Assembly (NCBI GenBank): GCA_022616475.1
Contig: JAKEEP010000255.1
Span: forward strand, 1 to 40,460
Direction of reading: 5' to 3'
Source: Phycisphaerales bacterium
GTDB taxonomy: Bacteria; Planctomycetota; Phycisphaerae; Phycisphaerales; SM1A02
Length of the DNA stretch: 40,460 nt
In this document: positions 3,436 through 40,460 of the stretch, in pieces
Position numbering within the stretch: position 1 is the stretch's first letter
Layout: each line of letters opens with the position of its first letter
Notes under the pieces: model-generated
Told to the model about the DNA's origin: nothing
Database searches by the model: none
The model's input: only the letters and a program-made list of their open reading frames with translations
Translations under genes and position numbers: made by a program

Positions 3436-3624
3436 ATGACTTCTACGAGCGAATTTCGAGTCCTGTGCCCGAATGGCAGATGCCGGCAAGTGTTGTCGGT
3501 CCCAGCACACGCTGCCGGCAGGATGGTGCGATGCCGTTGTTGTGGCGCCAACCTGCGGGTGCCGCCGCGAAAGGCTGATGTCGCATGCCAATCGCGTGTC
3601 GCATCGCAGCTGCGGCTAAGCTGA
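3436..3624 (+). CDS. Small zinc-ribbon protein
   Basis: A 62-residue protein with CPNGRC (Cys11, Cys16) and CRCCG (Cys33, Cys35, Cys36) around a LSVPAHAAGRMVRC hairpin, followed by NLRVPP. This layout is that of the short zinc ribbons often found in planctomycete proteins, where two Cys pairs flank an L-VP---G--V-C strand-turn-strand; the first pair here has a four-residue gap instead of two. ATG 3436 is preceded by GAAGGG. It is transcribed away from purA and converges on the FHA gene, with 3 nt between the stop codons. Function unknown; metal binding is inferred from the cysteines. Confidence 0.55.
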   Translation: MTSTSEFRVLCPNGRCRQVLSVPAHAAGRMVRCRCCGANLRVPPRKADVACQSRVASQLRLS

Positions 3625-3627
3625 ATA

Positions 3628-4017
3628 TCACCACTGCGATTCGACCGAGCCCTTGGGTTGATTGGCTTCTTGGGGCTGCCGCTCGAGCACTATGGGCATC
3701 GCCTCCCCATTGGTCGAATGCCCATCTTCCCTGACTTGGATCACAAACGTCACCGGCCCGATTGTCAGCCTGTCCTGATGGGTCAGGACTGCTTCCTGCA
3801 CACGGGTTCCGTTGTGATATGTCCCGCGGTCCGATGCCAAATCGACCAGCCTCAGCTCTGTTCCATCGTGTGTGATCTGACAATGCCTTCGCGAAACCGA
3901 TGGCACAGGCACACGGACATCGCACGTGGTTTCCCGGCCGATGATGGTCGTGGGTTTGCTGACCGCAAATGATCGCTCTCGGCCGTCGCCTCCTTGCATG
4001 ACTAGATAGATGTTCAT
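3628..4017 (-). CDS. FHA-domain protein
   Basis: A 129-residue single-domain protein. The forkhead-associated signature is clear: IIGRE (26-30, phosphate-contacting GR), SVSRRHCQI (41-49, with Ser42, Arg44 and His45), and a GTYHNGTRV block (Asn69-Gly70). FHA domains bind phosphothreonine peptides, so it probably reads the output of a Ser/Thr kinase encoded elsewhere; no kinase is seen in this window. ATG 4017 is chosen over 4044 because AGGGA lies just upstream. The C-terminal 25 residues are Gln/Pro-rich and probably flexible. It is divergent from hemW. Confidence 0.85.
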   Translation of the reverse strand: MNIYLVMQGGDGRERSFAVSKPTTIIGRETTCDVRVPVPSVSRRHCQITHDGTELRLVDLASDRGTYHNGTRVQEAVLTHQDRLTIGPVTFVIQVREDGHSTNGEAMPIVLERQPQEANQPKGSVESQW

Positions 4018-4147
4018 CCGTGTCCCTTCGTGGCCCTTGCCCAATGTGGGCTATCATCGATATCGCGGTACGAGCCAACGTTGGCGCGGGACCGCCGCCG
4101 CGATCTTTCTCCAGATTGCGTTCGTGCCCCCTTCCGTCCTATCGCAG

Positions 4148-5428
4148 ATGCCGCCTCTTCACACGTCCACTACCGCCCAGATTACCATCGAAGCGCCGGC
4201 GATCCAAGGGAAAAATCGCGCTGTAACCATAGAGGGCATCCTGCTGGCTGATCGCCCCGGTGGTCCTCGCCAATGGGACATCCCGGGTGTCTACATCCAT
4301 GTACCCTTTTGCTTTCACAAATGCCACTATTGCGACTTCTACAGCATTGTCGACAGCCACGACCGGCAGCAAGCCTTTACCCAGCGGCTGATTCAGGAGC
4401 TTAATGCTGCTTCGCCGGTCCTTTGCCGGTCCGGGCCGGTTGAGACGATCTTTGTCGGCGGGGGAACCCCCACATTGCTGGCGGCCCAGCAGTGGGAACA
4501 CCTGCTTGGGGTGATCAACCGGGTGATGCCCCACTTGGACCGCCGCGAATTCACCGTCGAGGCCAACCCGGAAACCGTCACTGCCGAGCTCGCCGACGTC
4601 TTACTCAGCGGGGGGGTCAATCGGGTCAGCATCGGATGCCAGTCATTCAACCACCATCACCTCAAGACTCTGGAGCGATGGCACGATCCGGAGAACGTCT
4701 TTCGAAGCGTCGAGATTCTGCGCCAAGCCGGGCTGGCGAACTTTAACCTTGACCTGATCTTCGCGATCCCGGGGCAAACCCTCGACGATTGGCTCGATGA
4801 CCTGGATCGGACGCTGGCTCTCCAACCAACCCACATCAGCTGTTATGGTCTGATGTACGAGCCAAATACGCCGCTCACTGTGAAGATGAAGGCTGGACGG
4901 ATCCAACCCGTCGAACAGGACCTGGAAGCCCAGATGTACGAAGCGACCATCGATCGTCTGGCGGCCGCAGGTTTCGAGCACTATGAAATCAGCAACTGGG
5001 CCCGCCAGCCGCTGAACCCCATGGCAACAGCGAATCGGTGCCGCCACAACATGATTTATTGGACCAACCGGAACTGGTGGCCGCTTGGGCCGAGCGCTTC
5101 GGGCCATGTTGAGGGCTTGCGCTGGAAAAACGTTCCACGCCTGGGTGAGTATCTCGATGGTGGGCCGTTTCCCCCCATCATTGATGTCGAGCAGTTGGAT
5201 CAGGATGGACGCATCGGCGAGCAATTCATGCTCGGATTGCGGCTGATTGAAGGCATGAAACTTGAAGAAGTTGAAGCGCTGCTCTCGCACGGCCGGCGCG
5301 GCCAACAGCGACGCCTGGCCATCGAGCGTAGCCTGAGCGAGGGATACCTCGTTGGGCTCAACGGATCTCTGCGGCTTTCGCGGAGGGGGCTGCTGTTGGC
5401 GGATTCGGTGATTGCGCCACTGATCTGA
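4148..5428 (+). CDS. hemW: Radical SAM protein HemW (coproporphyrinogen oxidase-like)
   Basis: HemW-type radical SAM enzyme. HVPFCFHKCHYCDF places the three [4Fe-4S] ligands at Cys55, Cys59 and Cys62 of the 426-aa form. The cluster is followed by Phe, without the extra Cys of true HemN, so the haem chaperone HemW is the better name. FVGGGTP, EANPETV, GVNRVSIGCQSF and the CRHNMIYW segment follow in family order, with a winged-helix-like C-terminal domain. HemW proteins bind haem and are thought to insert it into respiratory proteins. ATG 4148 leaves about 45 extra residues before the first conserved strand; the frame is open back to 4010, so the true start is uncertain. Confidence 0.88.
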   Translation: MPPLHTSTTAQITIEAPAIQGKNRAVTIEGILLADRPGGPRQWDIPGVYIHVPFCFHKCHYCDFYSIVDSHDRQQAFTQRLIQELNAASPVLCRSGPVETIFVGGGTPTLLAAQQWEHLLGVINRVMPHLDRREFTVEANPETVTAELADVLLSGGVNRVSIGCQSFNHHHLKTLERWHDPENVFRSVEILRQAGLANFNLDLIFAIPGQTLDDWLDDLDRTLALQPTHISCYGLMYEPNTPLTVKMKAGRIQPVEQDLEAQMYEATIDRLAAAGFEHYEISNWARQPLNPMATANRCRHNMIYWTNRNWWPLGPSASGHVEGLRWKNVPRLGEYLDGGPFPPIIDVEQLDQDGRIGEQFMLGLRLIEGMKLEEVEALLSHGRRGQQRRLAIERSLSEGYLVGLNGSLRLSRRGLLLADSVIAPLI

Positions 5429-24370: not shown

Positions 24371-24398
24371 CTGACAACTGACAACTGACAACTGACAA
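24371..24398. repeat. Heptamer array CTGACAA x4 before rpsS
   Basis: Four identical CTGACAA units, ending 6 nt before the rpsS ATG. The same unit recurs at 26434-26468. It replaces any Shine-Dalgarno site. Confidence 0.92.
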
Positions 24399-24404
24399 CT
24401 AACC

Positions 24405-25859: not shown

Positions 25860-26015
25860 GATTTTGGATTTTGGATTGAACACAACGCAGCACTCGGCAC
25901 TCAGGACCTAGGACTCAGCACTTAGCACTCAGGACTCAGCACTCAGGACTCAGCACTTAGCACTCAGGACTCAGCACTTAGCACTCAGGACTCAGCACTT
26001 AGCACTCAGGACTCT
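25860..26015. repeat. Large heptamer array in the rpsC-rplP spacer
   Basis: It begins with GATTTTG x2 (25860-25873). From 25890 to 26015 there are 18 consecutive 7-bp units of pattern GSAC(T/C)(T/C)N, mostly GCACTCA, GGACTCA and GCACTTA. A higher-order 21-bp cycle (GGACTCA, GCACTTA, GCACTCA) repeats four times, interrupted once. The array runs to within 5 nt of the rplP ATG. Units are 126 nt in total without an indel. Confidence 0.95.
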
Positions 26016-26020
26016 TTTTC

Positions 26021-26437
26021 ATGCGGATGCCAAAACGAATCAAGTTCCGCAAGCAGCAGCGGGGCGTATTGAAAGGGAACGCCACGCGCGGCAATTACGT
26101 CGCCTTCGGCGACTATGGATTGCAAGCGCTCGAGCCGCATTGGATTTCCGCTCGGCAGCTCGAAGCCGGCCGCGTCGCCGCCATGCACTTTCTTCGCCGG
26201 CAAGGCAAGGTCTACATCCGAGTCTTCCCCGACAAGCCGATCTCCAAGAAGCCCCTGGAAACTCGAATGGGAAAGGGCAAAGCCGAGACCGAGTACTGGG
26301 CCGCACGCTGCAAGCCCGGAACGATGCTCTTTGAAATCACCGGCGTCTCCGAAGACGTCGCCAAGCAAGCTCTGGCCCGCGTCGCTCACAAAATGCCGAT
26401 CCGCTGCCGCTTTGTCGGCCGCCGCATCGCCGTCTGA
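26021..26437 (+). CDS. rplP: Large ribosomal subunit protein L16 (uL16)
   Basis: A 138-aa protein of normal length. [54 protein letters not shown] and the [25 protein letters not shown] block are diagnostic. L16 binds near the A-site tRNA elbow and is essential late in 50S assembly. The TGA stop lies inside the first CTGACAA heptamer. Confidence 0.97.
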
Positions 26438-26468
26438 CAACTGACAACTGACAACTGACAACTGACTA
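26434..26468. repeat. Heptamer array CTGACAA x4 after rplP
   Basis: Four exact CTGACAA units and a fifth variant (CTGACTA) cover 26434-26468. The first one contains the rplP stop codon (26435-26437). It ends 6 nt before the rpmC ATG. Confidence 0.93.
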
Positions 26469-28425: not shown

Positions 28426-28527
28426 GTGCTGAGTGCGGCGTTCTGAGTGCTGAGTGCACTCGGAGCGAAAACGCACTCTGCAGCTTGAAACCCACCACCC
28501 AGCACCCAGCACTCAGCACGCAGAACT
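28426..28527. repeat. Inverted heptamer arrays between rplE and rpsN
   Basis: Five units of type GTGCTGA (28426-28460) face five units of type CAGCACC/CAGCACT (28493-28527), the reverse complement family, across a 32-nt spacer. They could fold into an imperfect long hairpin ending 5 nt before the rpsN ATG. Confidence 0.85.
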
Positions 28528-28532
28528 CACCC

Positions 28533-28720: not shown

Positions 28721-28798
28721 TTGTTAGTTGTTCGTTGATCGTTGTTCGTTGCAGACCGAGCGGAACACAACGAACCACGAACCACGAACCACAGGACG
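28721..28798. repeat. Inverted heptamer arrays between rpsN and rpsH
   Basis: Units of TTGTTCG type run from 28721 to 28751; three exact CGAACCA units (28771-28791) plus a degenerate one face them, near-complements across a short spacer. It is the same family as 34397-34467. It ends 4 nt before the rpsH ATG. Confidence 0.88.
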
Positions 28799-34395: not shown

Positions 34396-34396
34396 G

Positions 34397-34467
34397 TTGT
34401 TCGTTGTTAGTGGTTCGTTGTTCGTTGTGGCGCCCGATGAAGGCCACGAACAACGAACAACGAACTA
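34397..34467. repeat. Inverted heptamer arrays between rpsK and rpoA
   Basis: Units TTGTTCG/TTGTTAG (34397-34424) face CGAACAA units (34447-34467). CGTTGTTCG (34416-34424) is exactly complementary to 34447-34455, and pairing continues outward with a few mismatches, while TGGC/GCCA closes the loop. It would make a hairpin of about 20 bp right after the rpsK stop codon. Confidence 0.9.
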
Positions 34468-34582
34468 CTAACGTTGCCCGTGGACAGAAGGGACTCGCGG
34501 ATCGTCAGCAGGATCCGCTTGCTTCCCGTGCTCCGCCGGGTTTCCTGGTTCCAGGTCCTGCTGAATTGTTGGAGTCTCAGTC

Positions 34583-36455: not shown

Positions 36456-36704
36456 ATGGGAAAGAAACTCGGCGGCATCATCTTTGCTCTGGCGCTCATG
36501 GCCTTCGGCGGTCACATGACCTACGACCCGGCCAAATACGACATGACCGACTACGAGGCCTCCGGACGCCGCGCCATTTACAAGAAAGCCCTCGCCGCGG
36601 TCGTCAATACGCTCGGCCCGCGCACCACCGGCATCGTCTTGCTCTGCGGCGGCGGACTGATGCTCGTCGTCACCGTTCGTGGCCGCGACGATCACGAAAT
36701 CTGA
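36456..36704 (+). CDS. Small membrane protein of unknown function
   Basis: An 82-aa protein. Hydrophobic stretches lie at about 5-20 (LGGIIFALALMAFGG) and 57-74 (TTGIVLLCGGGLMLVV), giving two membrane spans with a loop rich in Tyr and Asp. ATG 36456 has AAAAGGA upstream. It converges on hom; the two coding regions overlap by 13 bp at their 3' ends. No family is recognised. Confidence 0.6.
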   Translation: MGKKLGGIIFALALMAFGGHMTYDPAKYDMTDYEASGRRAIYKKALAAVVNTLGPRTTGIVLLCGGGLMLVVTVRGRDDHEI

Positions 36705-38092
36705 TCGACCGCGTCATCGAGAATGGGCGCCACAAACGCGCGGCAACCCGTGCTGGCGCACATCGCGTCGCAGACGGCATTGATTCGATCGCCTTCGACT
36801 CGTCCCGTCAGCGCGCTCACGCCGTCAACGCCGAATTCAATCTGGCTGGTCTCGATGCCCCCGGCGCGCAGAGCTTCAAACACGCGATCCGGATTCAACT
36901 CCGAATGACTACCGCTCAGCCTGATCATGTGACGCCGACGAGGGGGCCGAAAAAGGTGCCAGGCACCATTTCTTGTTTGCTCGCTCGCGTGCCGCACGAC
37001 GTCCTCAGGAAATGGTGCCTGGCACCTTTTTCTGATGGGAGTCGCGGCGCTCAGCACCCCAAGCACATCACCCAGCACCGCCGATGCGGTCGGCGCTGGA
37101 CCTGCGCCGGCCCCGCGCAGATGAAGAATTCCAGCATGCCGGCTTTCGACGACCACCGCGTTTTCAGCGCCTCTCGGCTGGGCCAGGGGATGCGATGGGC
37201 GCAGCAGCGTCGGCCCAACGCGGCAATGGCTTGCGTCATCGCTCACATCCAGCTCGGCAAGCAGCTTGATCACATATCCAAACGATCGAGCCGCGGCGAT
37301 ATCGGCGCAGCTCAGTTGGTCGATTCCCTGCGTGTGAACTCCATCGGGCAAGACGCCACCGCAACCCGCCGCCGCTGCCAGCACGCACAGCTTCTCGGCG
37401 CTGTCGGCGCCGGAAATATCCGCCGAGGGATCGGGCTCGGCCAAGCCCAGGTCGATCGCCTCACCGAGCGCTTGATTCAGTGGGAGTCTGGCTTGCGTCA
37501 TTCGTGTGAGAATGTAGTTGCACGAGCCGTTGATGACCGCACGGATGGAGCGTACCTCATCGCCCGCCAGTTGCCGAAGCGATGCCAGCACCGGTATCGC
37601 CGCTCCGACACTTGCCTCGTAGGCTATGCCTGCGCCGCGCTGGGTCGCCAGGCGGTGCAGCGAACGACCATGCCTGGCGATCAAGCTCTTGTTGGCGGTA
37701 ACGACCGGAATCCCCCGTTCGAGCGCCGCGCGAACATAGGTCGCCGCAGGCTCGATTCCGCCCATCAATTCAACCACGACATCCGGACCGGCTTCCAGTA
37801 CGTGCTCGAAGTCCGTCGTGAACAAACTTGCATCGAGCCCACGCTCGCGCGACACATCGCGAACCAGCACGCGGGCTAACTCAAGCCGGATTCCATGCGA
37901 TCGCGCAATCCGTTTCCGCGATTCCAGCAGAATTCGCGCAAACTCCCGGCCCACCACGCCGCAACCGAGCAGGCCGATGCGAACCCCCGGAACGCCCCGA
38001 ACCCCCGGAACGCCCCGAACCCCCAGAACCTGCCGGCGCACCGGACGGACTCGATCAAACTGGCGTTGATCTTCGATCGTGAACGCGCTCAT
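36692..38092 (-). CDS. hom: Homoserine dehydrogenase with two in-frame repeat insertions
   Basis: A 466-aa enzyme that reduces aspartate semialdehyde to homoserine, for methionine and threonine. The Rossmann core starts at IGLLGCGVVG (39-48). VVTANKSLIARHG, YEASVGAAIPV, INGSCNYILTRM and EPDPSADISGADSAEKLCVLA with the catalytic Lys are all present. ATG 38092 has GGAGGTG upstream and overlaps the metB stop (ATGA). Residues 21-38 are encoded by an 18-bp tandem repeat and about 354-382 by a palindromic repeat. The last 75 residues may stand in for an ACT-type domain. Confidence 0.88.
   Translation of the reverse strand: MSAFTIEDQRQFDRVRPVRRQVLGVRGVPGVRGVPGVRIGLLGCGVVGREFARILLESRKRIARSHGIRLELARVLVRDVSRERGLDASLFTTDFEHVLEAGPDVVVELMGGIEPAATYVRAALERGIPVVTANKSLIARHGRSLHRLATQRGAGIAYEASVGAAIPVLASLRQLAGDEVRSIRAVINGSCNYILTRMTQARLPLNQALGEAIDLGLAEPDPSADISGADSAEKLCVLAAAAGCGGVLPDGVHTQGIDQLSCADIAAARSFGYVIKLLAELDVSDDASHCRVGPTLLRPSHPLAQPRGAENAVVVESRHAGILHLRGAGAGPAPTASAVLGDVLGVLSAATPIRKRCQAPFPEDVVRHASEQTRNGAWHLFRPPRRRHMIRLSGSHSELNPDRVFEALRAGGIETSQIEFGVDGVSALTGRVEGDRINAVCDAMCASTGCRAFVAPILDDAVDQIS
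36949..37032. repeat. Palindromic repeat, copy 3, inside hom
   Basis: Arms 36949-36975 and 37006-37032 are inverted repeats with one mismatch and a 30-nt spacer. The whole element is 84 nt, a multiple of three, so it keeps the hom frame open, adding 28 codons (reading RKRCQAPFPEDVV on the coding strand). It is in the opposite orientation to copies 1 and 2 as judged by spacer similarity. Confidence 0.9.
37981..38030. repeat. 18-bp tandem repeat in the 5' end of hom
   Basis: Two perfect 18-bp units (37981-37998, 37999-38016) and a partial third with one mismatch. On the coding strand they specify GVRGVPGVRGVPGVR, directly before the nucleotide-binding loop. Confidence 0.9.
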
Positions 38093-39279
38093 GAGGCCAC
38101 CTCCTGCAATCGCGAAGAGCGCGTGGCCTCGAGCGCCTGATCCAGGTCGTCGATCAAATCCTCGACGTTCTCCAGCCCAACCGAGAGGCGAACCAGCCCA
38201 TCGCCGATTCCAATGCGCCGTCGCTCGGCCGGTTCGACCGATGCGTGCGTCATCGTCGCCGGATGGCACAGCAGCGACTTGACGCCCCCCAAGCTTTCAG
38301 CCAGCGGCCACAGCTTGAGCTGCCCGATCAAGGCGCGGATTCGTTCAACGCCGCCCACGAATTCCACACTCATGATCCCGCCAAAACCGCTGGTTTGCCG
38401 CTGCGCCAACTCATGCTGCGGATGGCTCGCCAACCCGGGATAAATGACCGTTTCAACTTCCGAATGGGCCTCCAGGAATTCAGCGATTGCCAAGGCGTTC
38501 TCGGCATGTCGCCGTACGCGCAATGCCAGCGTCTTGATCCCGCGCAGCTGCAGGAAGCAATCCTGTGGCCCCGGCACTCCGCCAGTTGCGTTCTGAACAA
38601 ACTTCAGGGATTCATACGTCGCCTCATCGTCGACGATCAAGGCCCCCCCCAACACATCGCAGTGCCCGCCGATGTACTTGGTTGTCGAATGGAGAACGAT
38701 GTCGGCGCCAAGCGCCAACGGCCGCTGATGAACCGGTGTGGCAAATGTGTTGTCAACAAGCACTTTGATGCGCCGAGCCTTTGCAGCCTCTGAGCACGCG
38801 GCCAGATCAGTGATCTTCAGCAATGGATTCGATGGCGACTCCAGCCAAAGAAGCTTCGTGGCAGGTTCGATCGCTTTGGCAACGTTCTGAGGTCGCGTCG
38901 TGTCGATCAGCGAAAATCGCACCCCGAATCGCGCGAAAATCTTCGTGAAGAGCCGGTAACAGCCGCCATACAAGTCTTGCGACGCCACCACATGATCGCC
39001 CGCGCTCAAGGCCTGCAGCACCGCGTTGGCCGCCGCAAGACCGCTTGAGAACGCCAACCCGAACCGGCCGCCTTCCAGCGCGGCAAGGTTGGCTTCCAGC
39101 GCCTCGCGCGTTGGGTTGCCGCTTCGCGTGTAGCAGTATGCCGGCGGCGCAACGCCCAGTCCGGCCAACTCGTCTTGCGCAAACGTTGTTGTTTGATAAA
39201 TCGGTGTAACCACCGCGCCGGTCAACGCCTCGTTGGGCTGCCCGGCGTGAATAGCCAATGTTTCAAAGTGATAAGACAT
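38089..39279 (-). CDS. metB: Cystathionine gamma-synthase family PLP enzyme
   Basis: A 396-aa trans-sulfuration enzyme. YHFETLAIHAGQ opens; PAYCYTRSGNPTREALE binds substrate phosphate, FSSGLAAANAVLQAL and HSTTKYIGGHCDVLGGALI carry the PLP-binding Lys. It probably makes cystathionine from an activated homoserine and cysteine; a homocysteine-forming or lyase activity cannot be excluded from sequence. ATG 39279 with GAGGG 9 nt upstream is preferred to the longer frame from 39366. Its TGA overlaps the hom ATG, so the operon is metB-hom. Confidence 0.88.
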   Translation of the reverse strand: MSYHFETLAIHAGQPNEALTGAVVTPIYQTTTFAQDELAGLGVAPPAYCYTRSGNPTREALEANLAALEGGRFGLAFSSGLAAANAVLQALSAGDHVVASQDLYGGCYRLFTKIFARFGVRFSLIDTTRPQNVAKAIEPATKLLWLESPSNPLLKITDLAACSEAAKARRIKVLVDNTFATPVHQRPLALGADIVLHSTTKYIGGHCDVLGGALIVDDEATYESLKFVQNATGGVPGPQDCFLQLRGIKTLALRVRRHAENALAIAEFLEAHSEVETVIYPGLASHPQHELAQRQTSGFGGIMSVEFVGGVERIRALIGQLKLWPLAESLGGVKSLLCHPATMTHASVEPAERRRIGIGDGLVRLSVGLENVEDLIDDLDQALEATRSSRLQEVAS

Positions 39280-39603: not shown

Positions 39604-40460
39604 ATGATCGAAGTCCTGGAAAAACTCGAGCGCGATGGCCTACAGCACCTTCAGGCCGCCAGCGATCCCGATTCGCTCGAAGCCTGGCGAATCAAGTACC
39701 TTGGCACCAAGGGCGCCCTCAAGGCGGTCATGCCGCGGCTCAAGGACGTTCCCAAAGATCAGAAGCCCGCCGTTGGCCAGCGGCTCAATCAAGTCAAGGA
39801 TGCCCTCGAGACTGCCTTCGAGCAACGAAAATCGGCTCTGCGGGCTCCCGGGGCCGGTCGCGGGCCGGTCATCGATGTGACCGAGCCAGGTCTTTCCTTG
39901 GGTCTTGGTCGCCGACACATTCTGACCCGCACCATCGATGAGATCACCGACGTCTTCGGCCGCATGGGTTTCTCCGTTGCGCACGGACCCGAGGTCGAAG
40001 ACGAATGGCACAATTTCAACGCGCTCAATATCCCCGCTGAACATCCGGCGCGCGAGCCGTCGGATAATTTCTACTTGGAGCGATCAGCAATCAGCGATCA
40101 GCGATCAGCTGACAGCCGAAAGCCGAAAGCCGCAAGCTCGCCCCTGATGCTGCGGTCTCAAACTTCGACGGTGCAAATCCGCACGATGGAGAAGACCAAG
40201 CCGCCGCTGAAGGTGGTTGCCGTCGGGCGGGTCTATCGCCCCGACACCCACGATGCAACCCACTTCAGCATGTTCCACCAGATCGAAGGGTTGCATGTCG
40301 ATCGCAACATCTCGATGGTTGATCTCAAGACCAGCCTCTTTCAATTCGCCAGGGCCTACTTCGGACCAGAAGCCGAAGTGCGAATGCGGCCGAGCTTCTT
40401 CCCGTTCACCGAGCCCTCGGCCGAAGTTGACATGAAGATGAAAATCAAGGGCGAATGGAA
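39604..40460 (+). CDS. pheS: Phenylalanyl-tRNA synthetase alpha subunit, 3' end outside the window
   Basis: At least 285 residues are visible; the frame is open at the window end. The N-terminal helical arm (about 1-85) is followed by the class II core: GRRHILTRTIDEITDVFGRMGFSVAHGPEVEDEWHNFNALNIPAEHPARE, then LRSQTSTVQIRTM and GRVYRPDTHDATHFSMFHQIEGLHVD. It charges tRNA-Phe together with PheT. Residues 160-178 are an insertion encoded by a heptamer array, between DNFYLE and PLMLRSQTS, where most PheS have only a few residues. Start ATG 39604. Confidence 0.95.
   Translation, partial: MIEVLEKLERDGLQHLQAASDPDSLEAWRIKYLGTKGALKAVMPRLKDVPKDQKPAVGQRLNQVKDALETAFEQRKSALRAPGAGRGPVIDVTEPGLSLGLGRRHILTRTIDEITDVFGRMGFSVAHGPEVEDEWHNFNALNIPAEHPAREPSDNFYLERSAISDQRSADSRKPKAASSPLMLRSQTSTVQIRTMEKTKPPLKVVAVGRVYRPDTHDATHFSMFHQIEGLHVDRNISMVDLKTSLFQFARAYFGPEAEVRMRPSFFPFTEPSAEVDMKMKIKGEW
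40081..40136. repeat. Heptamer array inside pheS
   Basis: Eight consecutive 7-bp units without indel, all fitting CnnnnAG: four of CGATCAG type, CTGACAG, then CCGAAAG twice and CCGCAAG. It encodes about 19 residues rich in Ser, Arg, Lys and Ala. The reading frame stays open. Confidence 0.92.

Follow-up and report, generated by a model that had tools for sequence, protein, structure and literature searches.

In this work, an array of seven-base repeats was observed in frame inside pheS, which encodes the phenylalanyl-tRNA synthetase alpha subunit of a planctomycete whose PheS relatives belong to the Phycisphaerales and Phycisphaerae. It is likely that this tract is one of the dispersed, fast-evolving heptamer repeats of the genome and that it occupies, in frame, a beta-turn of a functional PheS in which changes of length are tolerated. 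The window, i.e., the whole stretch of 40,460 nucleotides that was analysed, is all of contig 40 in a draft metagenome assembly (331 contigs, 88% complete). The pheS gene occupies 39604..40460 on the plus strand, where the open frame at 39604-40458 comprises 285 codons and is truncated by the contig end. This frame carries the domains Phe_tRNA-synt_N and tRNA-synt_2d (Pfam PF02912 and PF01409), and its product shares 64-75% identity with its counterparts in Phycisphaerales relatives. Only one PheS match was found in this draft, 88% complete genome, which indicates a single-copy gene, and pheS is an essential gene.

The array consists of nine AGC-anchored units at 40079..40141 on the plus strand, that is 63 bp or 21 codons (residues ~160-180, RSAISDQRSADSRKPKAASSP). 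The first four units (AGCGATC, AGCAATC, AGCGATC, and AGCGATC) form a block of the AGCGATC type at 40079..40106, and the second block at 40107..40141 continues with AGCTGAC, AGCCGAA, AGCCGAA, AGCCGCA, and AGCTCGC, the last of which retains the AGC anchor alone. TRF splits the tract into two neighbouring arrays (40079-40109 and 40114-40137). A GAGCG of native appearance (codons E-R), which also occurs in the relative G036, overlaps with the first unit. The first-pass annotation had described an in-frame array of eight units at 40081-40136, with 56 bp and about 19 residues. The array is real and its boundaries are slightly wider; the unit count had to be raised to nine. The concern that 56 cannot be divided by three also dissolves, since nine units give 63 bp, with a net excess of 57 bp relative to E. 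coli.

At lag 7, the array is identical to itself at 44 of 59 positions. This value was never reached in 200,000 base shuffles (maximum 32), and when the same peptide was recoded synonymously 200,000 times, it was reached only 4 times. Because so few synonymous recodings match its periodicity, the repeat resides in the DNA itself and does not simply follow from the encoded peptide. Folding gave no hairpin for the pheS array (z -0.47), which has a single orientation and is not palindromic. Since each heptamer shifts the frame by one, a run of at least three identical units passes through all phases, whatever the frame, and a unit with a stop in any phase closes all three frames across such a run. 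AGCGATC is free of stops on the pheS strand but not on the opposite strand. AGCTGAC contains TGA, and it occurs once in the array, in a harmless phase. Of the six reading frames across the array, two are open, including the one in which PheS is read.

The alignment to E. coli PheS (3pco) has one clean gap of 19 residues, at a single point between two conserved segments, so that the aligned span comprises 102 residues in E. coli and 121 in this protein. The insertion is exact relative to E. coli, and residues that are invariant in relatives flank it. The first conserved codons 3' of the array (P-L-M-L-R-S-Q-T-S, 40142..40166, plus strand) include L183, R184, and Q186-S188, which are invariant in relatives. 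The solved structure of T. thermophilus PheS has 119 residues over a span in which this protein has 123. A comparison of 56 distinct PheS loops of this genome and of relatives showed that the stretch from the conserved HP to LR[TS]QTS is mostly 15 or 19 residues long; the relatives range over 15-42 residues, most of them within 15-22. Long loops were found in G036 (27), G011 (27), this genome (34), and G056 (42). The earlier statement that this place comprises only a few residues in most PheS therefore applies to E. coli and the shorter-looped relatives, but not to the family as a whole, which is length-variable, nor to T. thermophilus, which is just four residues shorter. Judged by these alignments, the array-bearing site is an indel-tolerant turn and not a rigid core. 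The array peptide is probably exposed on the surface, as the alignments and the loop variability suggest rather than a good model. Two AlphaFold runs on the contig-cut PheS were poor (mean pLDDT 57 and 59), and in these low-confidence models short strands flank the array at 155-158 and 181-185.

Period-7 arrays are widespread in this genome. The scan covered 1.11 Mb, about 30% of the genome, and found 73 period-7 arrays of 31 unit types; this sample was partly picked for arrays, so its counts are not rates. In a less biased subset of 0.66 Mb, period 7 accounted for 25 arrays, period 8 for 14, and periods 5, 10, 11, and 13 for 0-2 each. Markov-resampled sequence contained no arrays. The form ARCNNNN was present in 56 of the 73 arrays, compared to 39 +/- 4 in shuffled units, and AACTGAC was among the commonest units. 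Unit vocabularies differ between genera. The array load by pattern matches was 259 in this genome, over 100 in G008, G028, and G036, and 0-10 in most of the family. In G028, a heptamer array (G028:C148:4320-4343) lies less than 30 bases upstream of a pheS match (3502-4293, minus strand).

Within the window, several further arrays were located on the plus strand. A CTGACAA array at 24371..24403 ends directly before the ATG of the next gene, a ribosomal-protein gene, and a CAGCACT/CAGGACT array of about 18 units at 25890..26014 lies just upstream of a ribosomal-protein ATG at 26021. A second CTGACAA array occupies 26434..26466, and an ACCCAGC/CAGCACT array occupies 28490..28529. Two inverted pairs are situated between ribosomal-protein genes, one at 28721..28792 (TTGTTCG at 28721-28751, CGAACCA at 28767-28792) and the other at 34396..34472 (GTTGTTC at 34396-34428, ACGAACA at 34446-34472). 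The 1.1 Mb contained seven close inverted pairs of arrays in all. A repeat of a different length was also seen in the window: at 37980-38030, near the start of a homoserine-dehydrogenase-like minus-strand ORF (36692-38269), about 2.8 copies of an 18-base unit encode VRGVPGVRGVPGVR.

The proposal that the arrays also enter coding DNA is strongly supported by seven further conserved enzymes of the same genome. In the 1.1 Mb sampled, in-frame arrays lie within the conserved (Pfam) domains of SdhA, aconitase, MnmA, PsuG, ThiG, phosphohexomutase, and an alpha/beta-hydrolase, and others are located beside domains, at the edges, in LipA and the helicase Lhr. The extra residues were measured for six enzymes by alignment to solved structures, and they amount to ~30 in ThiG, ~17-20 in MnmA, ~13 in SdhA, 12 in PsuG, ~9 in aconitase, and ~8 in phosphohexomutase. 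The aconitase site is itself length-variable, with 16-24 residues in relatives and 25 in this genome. The same applies to the ThiG site, where most relatives have 14-18 residues, G008 has 36 of non-repeat sequence, and this genome has 39. The peptides encoded by the arrays differ by gene (RSAISDQ in PheS; ALSTQNS, NSELGTR, and TKDQRPK elsewhere), and comparison of the genes of this genome revealed no conserved peptide among the insertions. In the array-rich relative G008, TrpE contains an in-frame array, and the linker of an ECF sigma factor contains a further array, which means that coding heptamer arrays recur across genera. In ThiG (L212:4208-4294, contig 238), the insertion is an in-frame inverted pair, (AGGTGTC)n and (CTGACAC)n, with a very stable hairpin (z -7.9). 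As a separate observation, the aconitase C-terminus occurs a second time as a fragment (G000:C30:17764-17862; 33 residues with 88% identity), ~1 kb downstream of the full-length gene.

We hypothesize that a short heptamer seed arose at, or was copied into, the natural GAGCG at the turn of PheS. Slipped-strand events or conversion between arrays may have expanded and diversified this seed, a generator that we infer rather than see as a change in copy number. Each heptamer shifts the frame by one, and the cell requires a functional PheS; only in-frame, stop-free forms would therefore survive, and the survivors in pheS would be those with a net length divisible by three and with units that are read without a stop. 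More generally, genic arrays would persist only if they contain no stop, keep the frame, and are located in a loop that tolerates changes of length. The product would be about 20 extra residues in PheS, probably unstructured and on the surface, and the peptide itself may be neutral. Unit types recur at unlinked loci, so local slippage alone is insufficient and some inter-locus copying is needed. Two candidate agents of dispersal were rejected. Replication-strand polarity is unsupported, as the arrays are mixed on both strands in the complete genome of the relative G008. Mobilisation by RAYT (Y1_Tnp) was suggested by the presence of this gene in 7 of 8 array-rich genomes vs 5 of 18 array-poor genomes (Fisher p 0.009), but this association is confounded because both counts track genome size. 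Among the ten Y1-transposase loci of this genome, only one has a heptamer array nearby (L318:2546-2625 on contig 162, AGTGCTG/AGTCCTA, ~11 units).

The order of events at the turn could also have been the opposite, with a turn that was already long in this lineage and heptamers that overwrote existing sequence; we regard this as a serious possibility but as somewhat doubtful. Non-repeat loops of similar length in relatives, which the first-pass annotation had named as the observation that would speak against a true insertion, do occur in part, since three array-bearing relatives (G036, G011, and G056) have the PheS loops of 27, 27, and 42 residues given above. Furthermore, the non-repeat segment of G008 ThiG is situated exactly at the array insertion of this genome. 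On the other hand, most relatives have only 15-22 residues in PheS, and the PheS tree gives no firm placement of this genome and does not join it to the long-loop ones. The long loops could equally be decayed arrays, although no clear residual period 7 is left: the loops of G036, G011, and G056 gave no significant lag-7 signal, and in G008 ThiG there was a hint at lag 14 (z 3.1), which is not significant given that eleven lags and several loops were tried. The heptamer array itself is present in the loop of this genome alone among the 56, which also argues against a function of the array. Such a function, be it contingency switching of PheS, a binding site in RNA or DNA, or a useful peptide, is very improbable, because cells would not survive the switching-off of an essential gene that is present in one copy. 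Moreover, the PheS array has no hairpin and the insertions share no peptide. A point in favour is that arrays of the window abut start codons in the ribosomal-protein operon, like the TAACTGA repeats of Beggiatoaceae (PMC4679880).

It is improbable, too, that the array is a mobile element in the style of the Rickettsia palindromic elements, which would have moved as a unit into genes and been kept when in frame. The in-frame insertions in many unrelated conserved genes would fit such an element, as would the close inverted pairs, one of which is the in-frame hairpin of ThiG. The PheS array, however, is of a single orientation and without a special fold, the unit sequences and the peptides are unlike between genes, and the link to Y1/RAYT is limited to the single neighbouring locus and the weak association confounded by size. 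An assembly artefact or a pseudogene is the least probable explanation and can be considered extremely unlikely. The draft state of the metagenome assembly and the contig end that cuts pheS might give rise to such a suspicion, but the frame stays open, both flanks are still PheS, and the same pattern is seen in seven other enzymes on separate contigs. Moreover, this is the sole PheS copy found, and it retains the residues that are invariant in relatives.

The preferred reading of the pheS tract as a dispersed heptamer repeat can be compared to known systems. Heptanucleotide repeats are abundant in bacteria, slippage of such repeats was proposed earlier, and coding repeats usually have units of three (MacGregor, 2015, PMC4679880). 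TAACTGA repeats occur in Beggiatoaceae, Cyanobacteria, and Bacteroidetes. In Beggiatoaceae, they abut start codons, where a translational role was proposed, and in ORFs the repeats are located in protein ends, small hypothetical proteins, or one variant RNA polymerase beta-prime-like protein; in genes of assigned function, this last protein is the only exception to a position at the protein ends (PMC4679880). The arrays of this genome resemble the long SSRs of bacteria, the STRR of cyanobacteria, and the TAACTGA repeats: 7-base units of mixed types are arranged head to tail above chance, kindred units are found at many unlinked loci, most arrays are intergenic, and they are often beside start codons. 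The TAACTGA unit, read as AACTGAT, even fits the ARC-anchored form of this genome. Unlike in Beggiatoaceae, at least eight housekeeping enzymes of this genome have arrays within their conserved domains. Rickettsia palindromic elements are palindromes of ~150 bp that code for a conserved peptide and are in frame in many genes (Ogata et al., 2000, via PMC10969869). The two systems have in common that unrelated metabolic genes of a single genome tolerate in-frame insertions, whereas the PheS array is shorter and non-palindromic and the peptides encoded by the arrays vary by gene; the palindromic ThiG insertion with its strong hairpin is closer to these elements than the PheS array is. Inverted array pairs in the window and elsewhere fold back as REP hairpins do, but, unlike REP/BIME with RAYT, the arrays and the Y1 transposase genes have no consistent neighbourhood. 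The PheS case is thus similar in effect to the Rickettsia palindromic elements, and in kind it is a heptanucleotide repeat.

Non-triplet repeats are expected to be absent from essential genes, as the gain or loss of any single unit disrupts the reading frame. One genome nevertheless has such arrays in a tRNA synthetase, succinate dehydrogenase, aconitase, a tRNA thiolase, thiazole synthase, and others. It would mean that heptamer repeats can lengthen the loops of conserved proteins from within. The array sites represent a natural collection of insertion-tolerant positions in core enzymes, and they give a direct test of whether microsatellite-like arrays seed new protein loops. A bolder version, which we consider unlikely and put forward only tentatively, is that the heptamer arrays of these planctomycetes actively disperse and repeatedly plant in-frame loops in core enzymes by an undescribed copying process, the loops of G056 PheS and G008 ThiG being decayed arrays. 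If true, the decayed-array reading would describe a route for the birth of protein loops from frame-shifting microsatellites.
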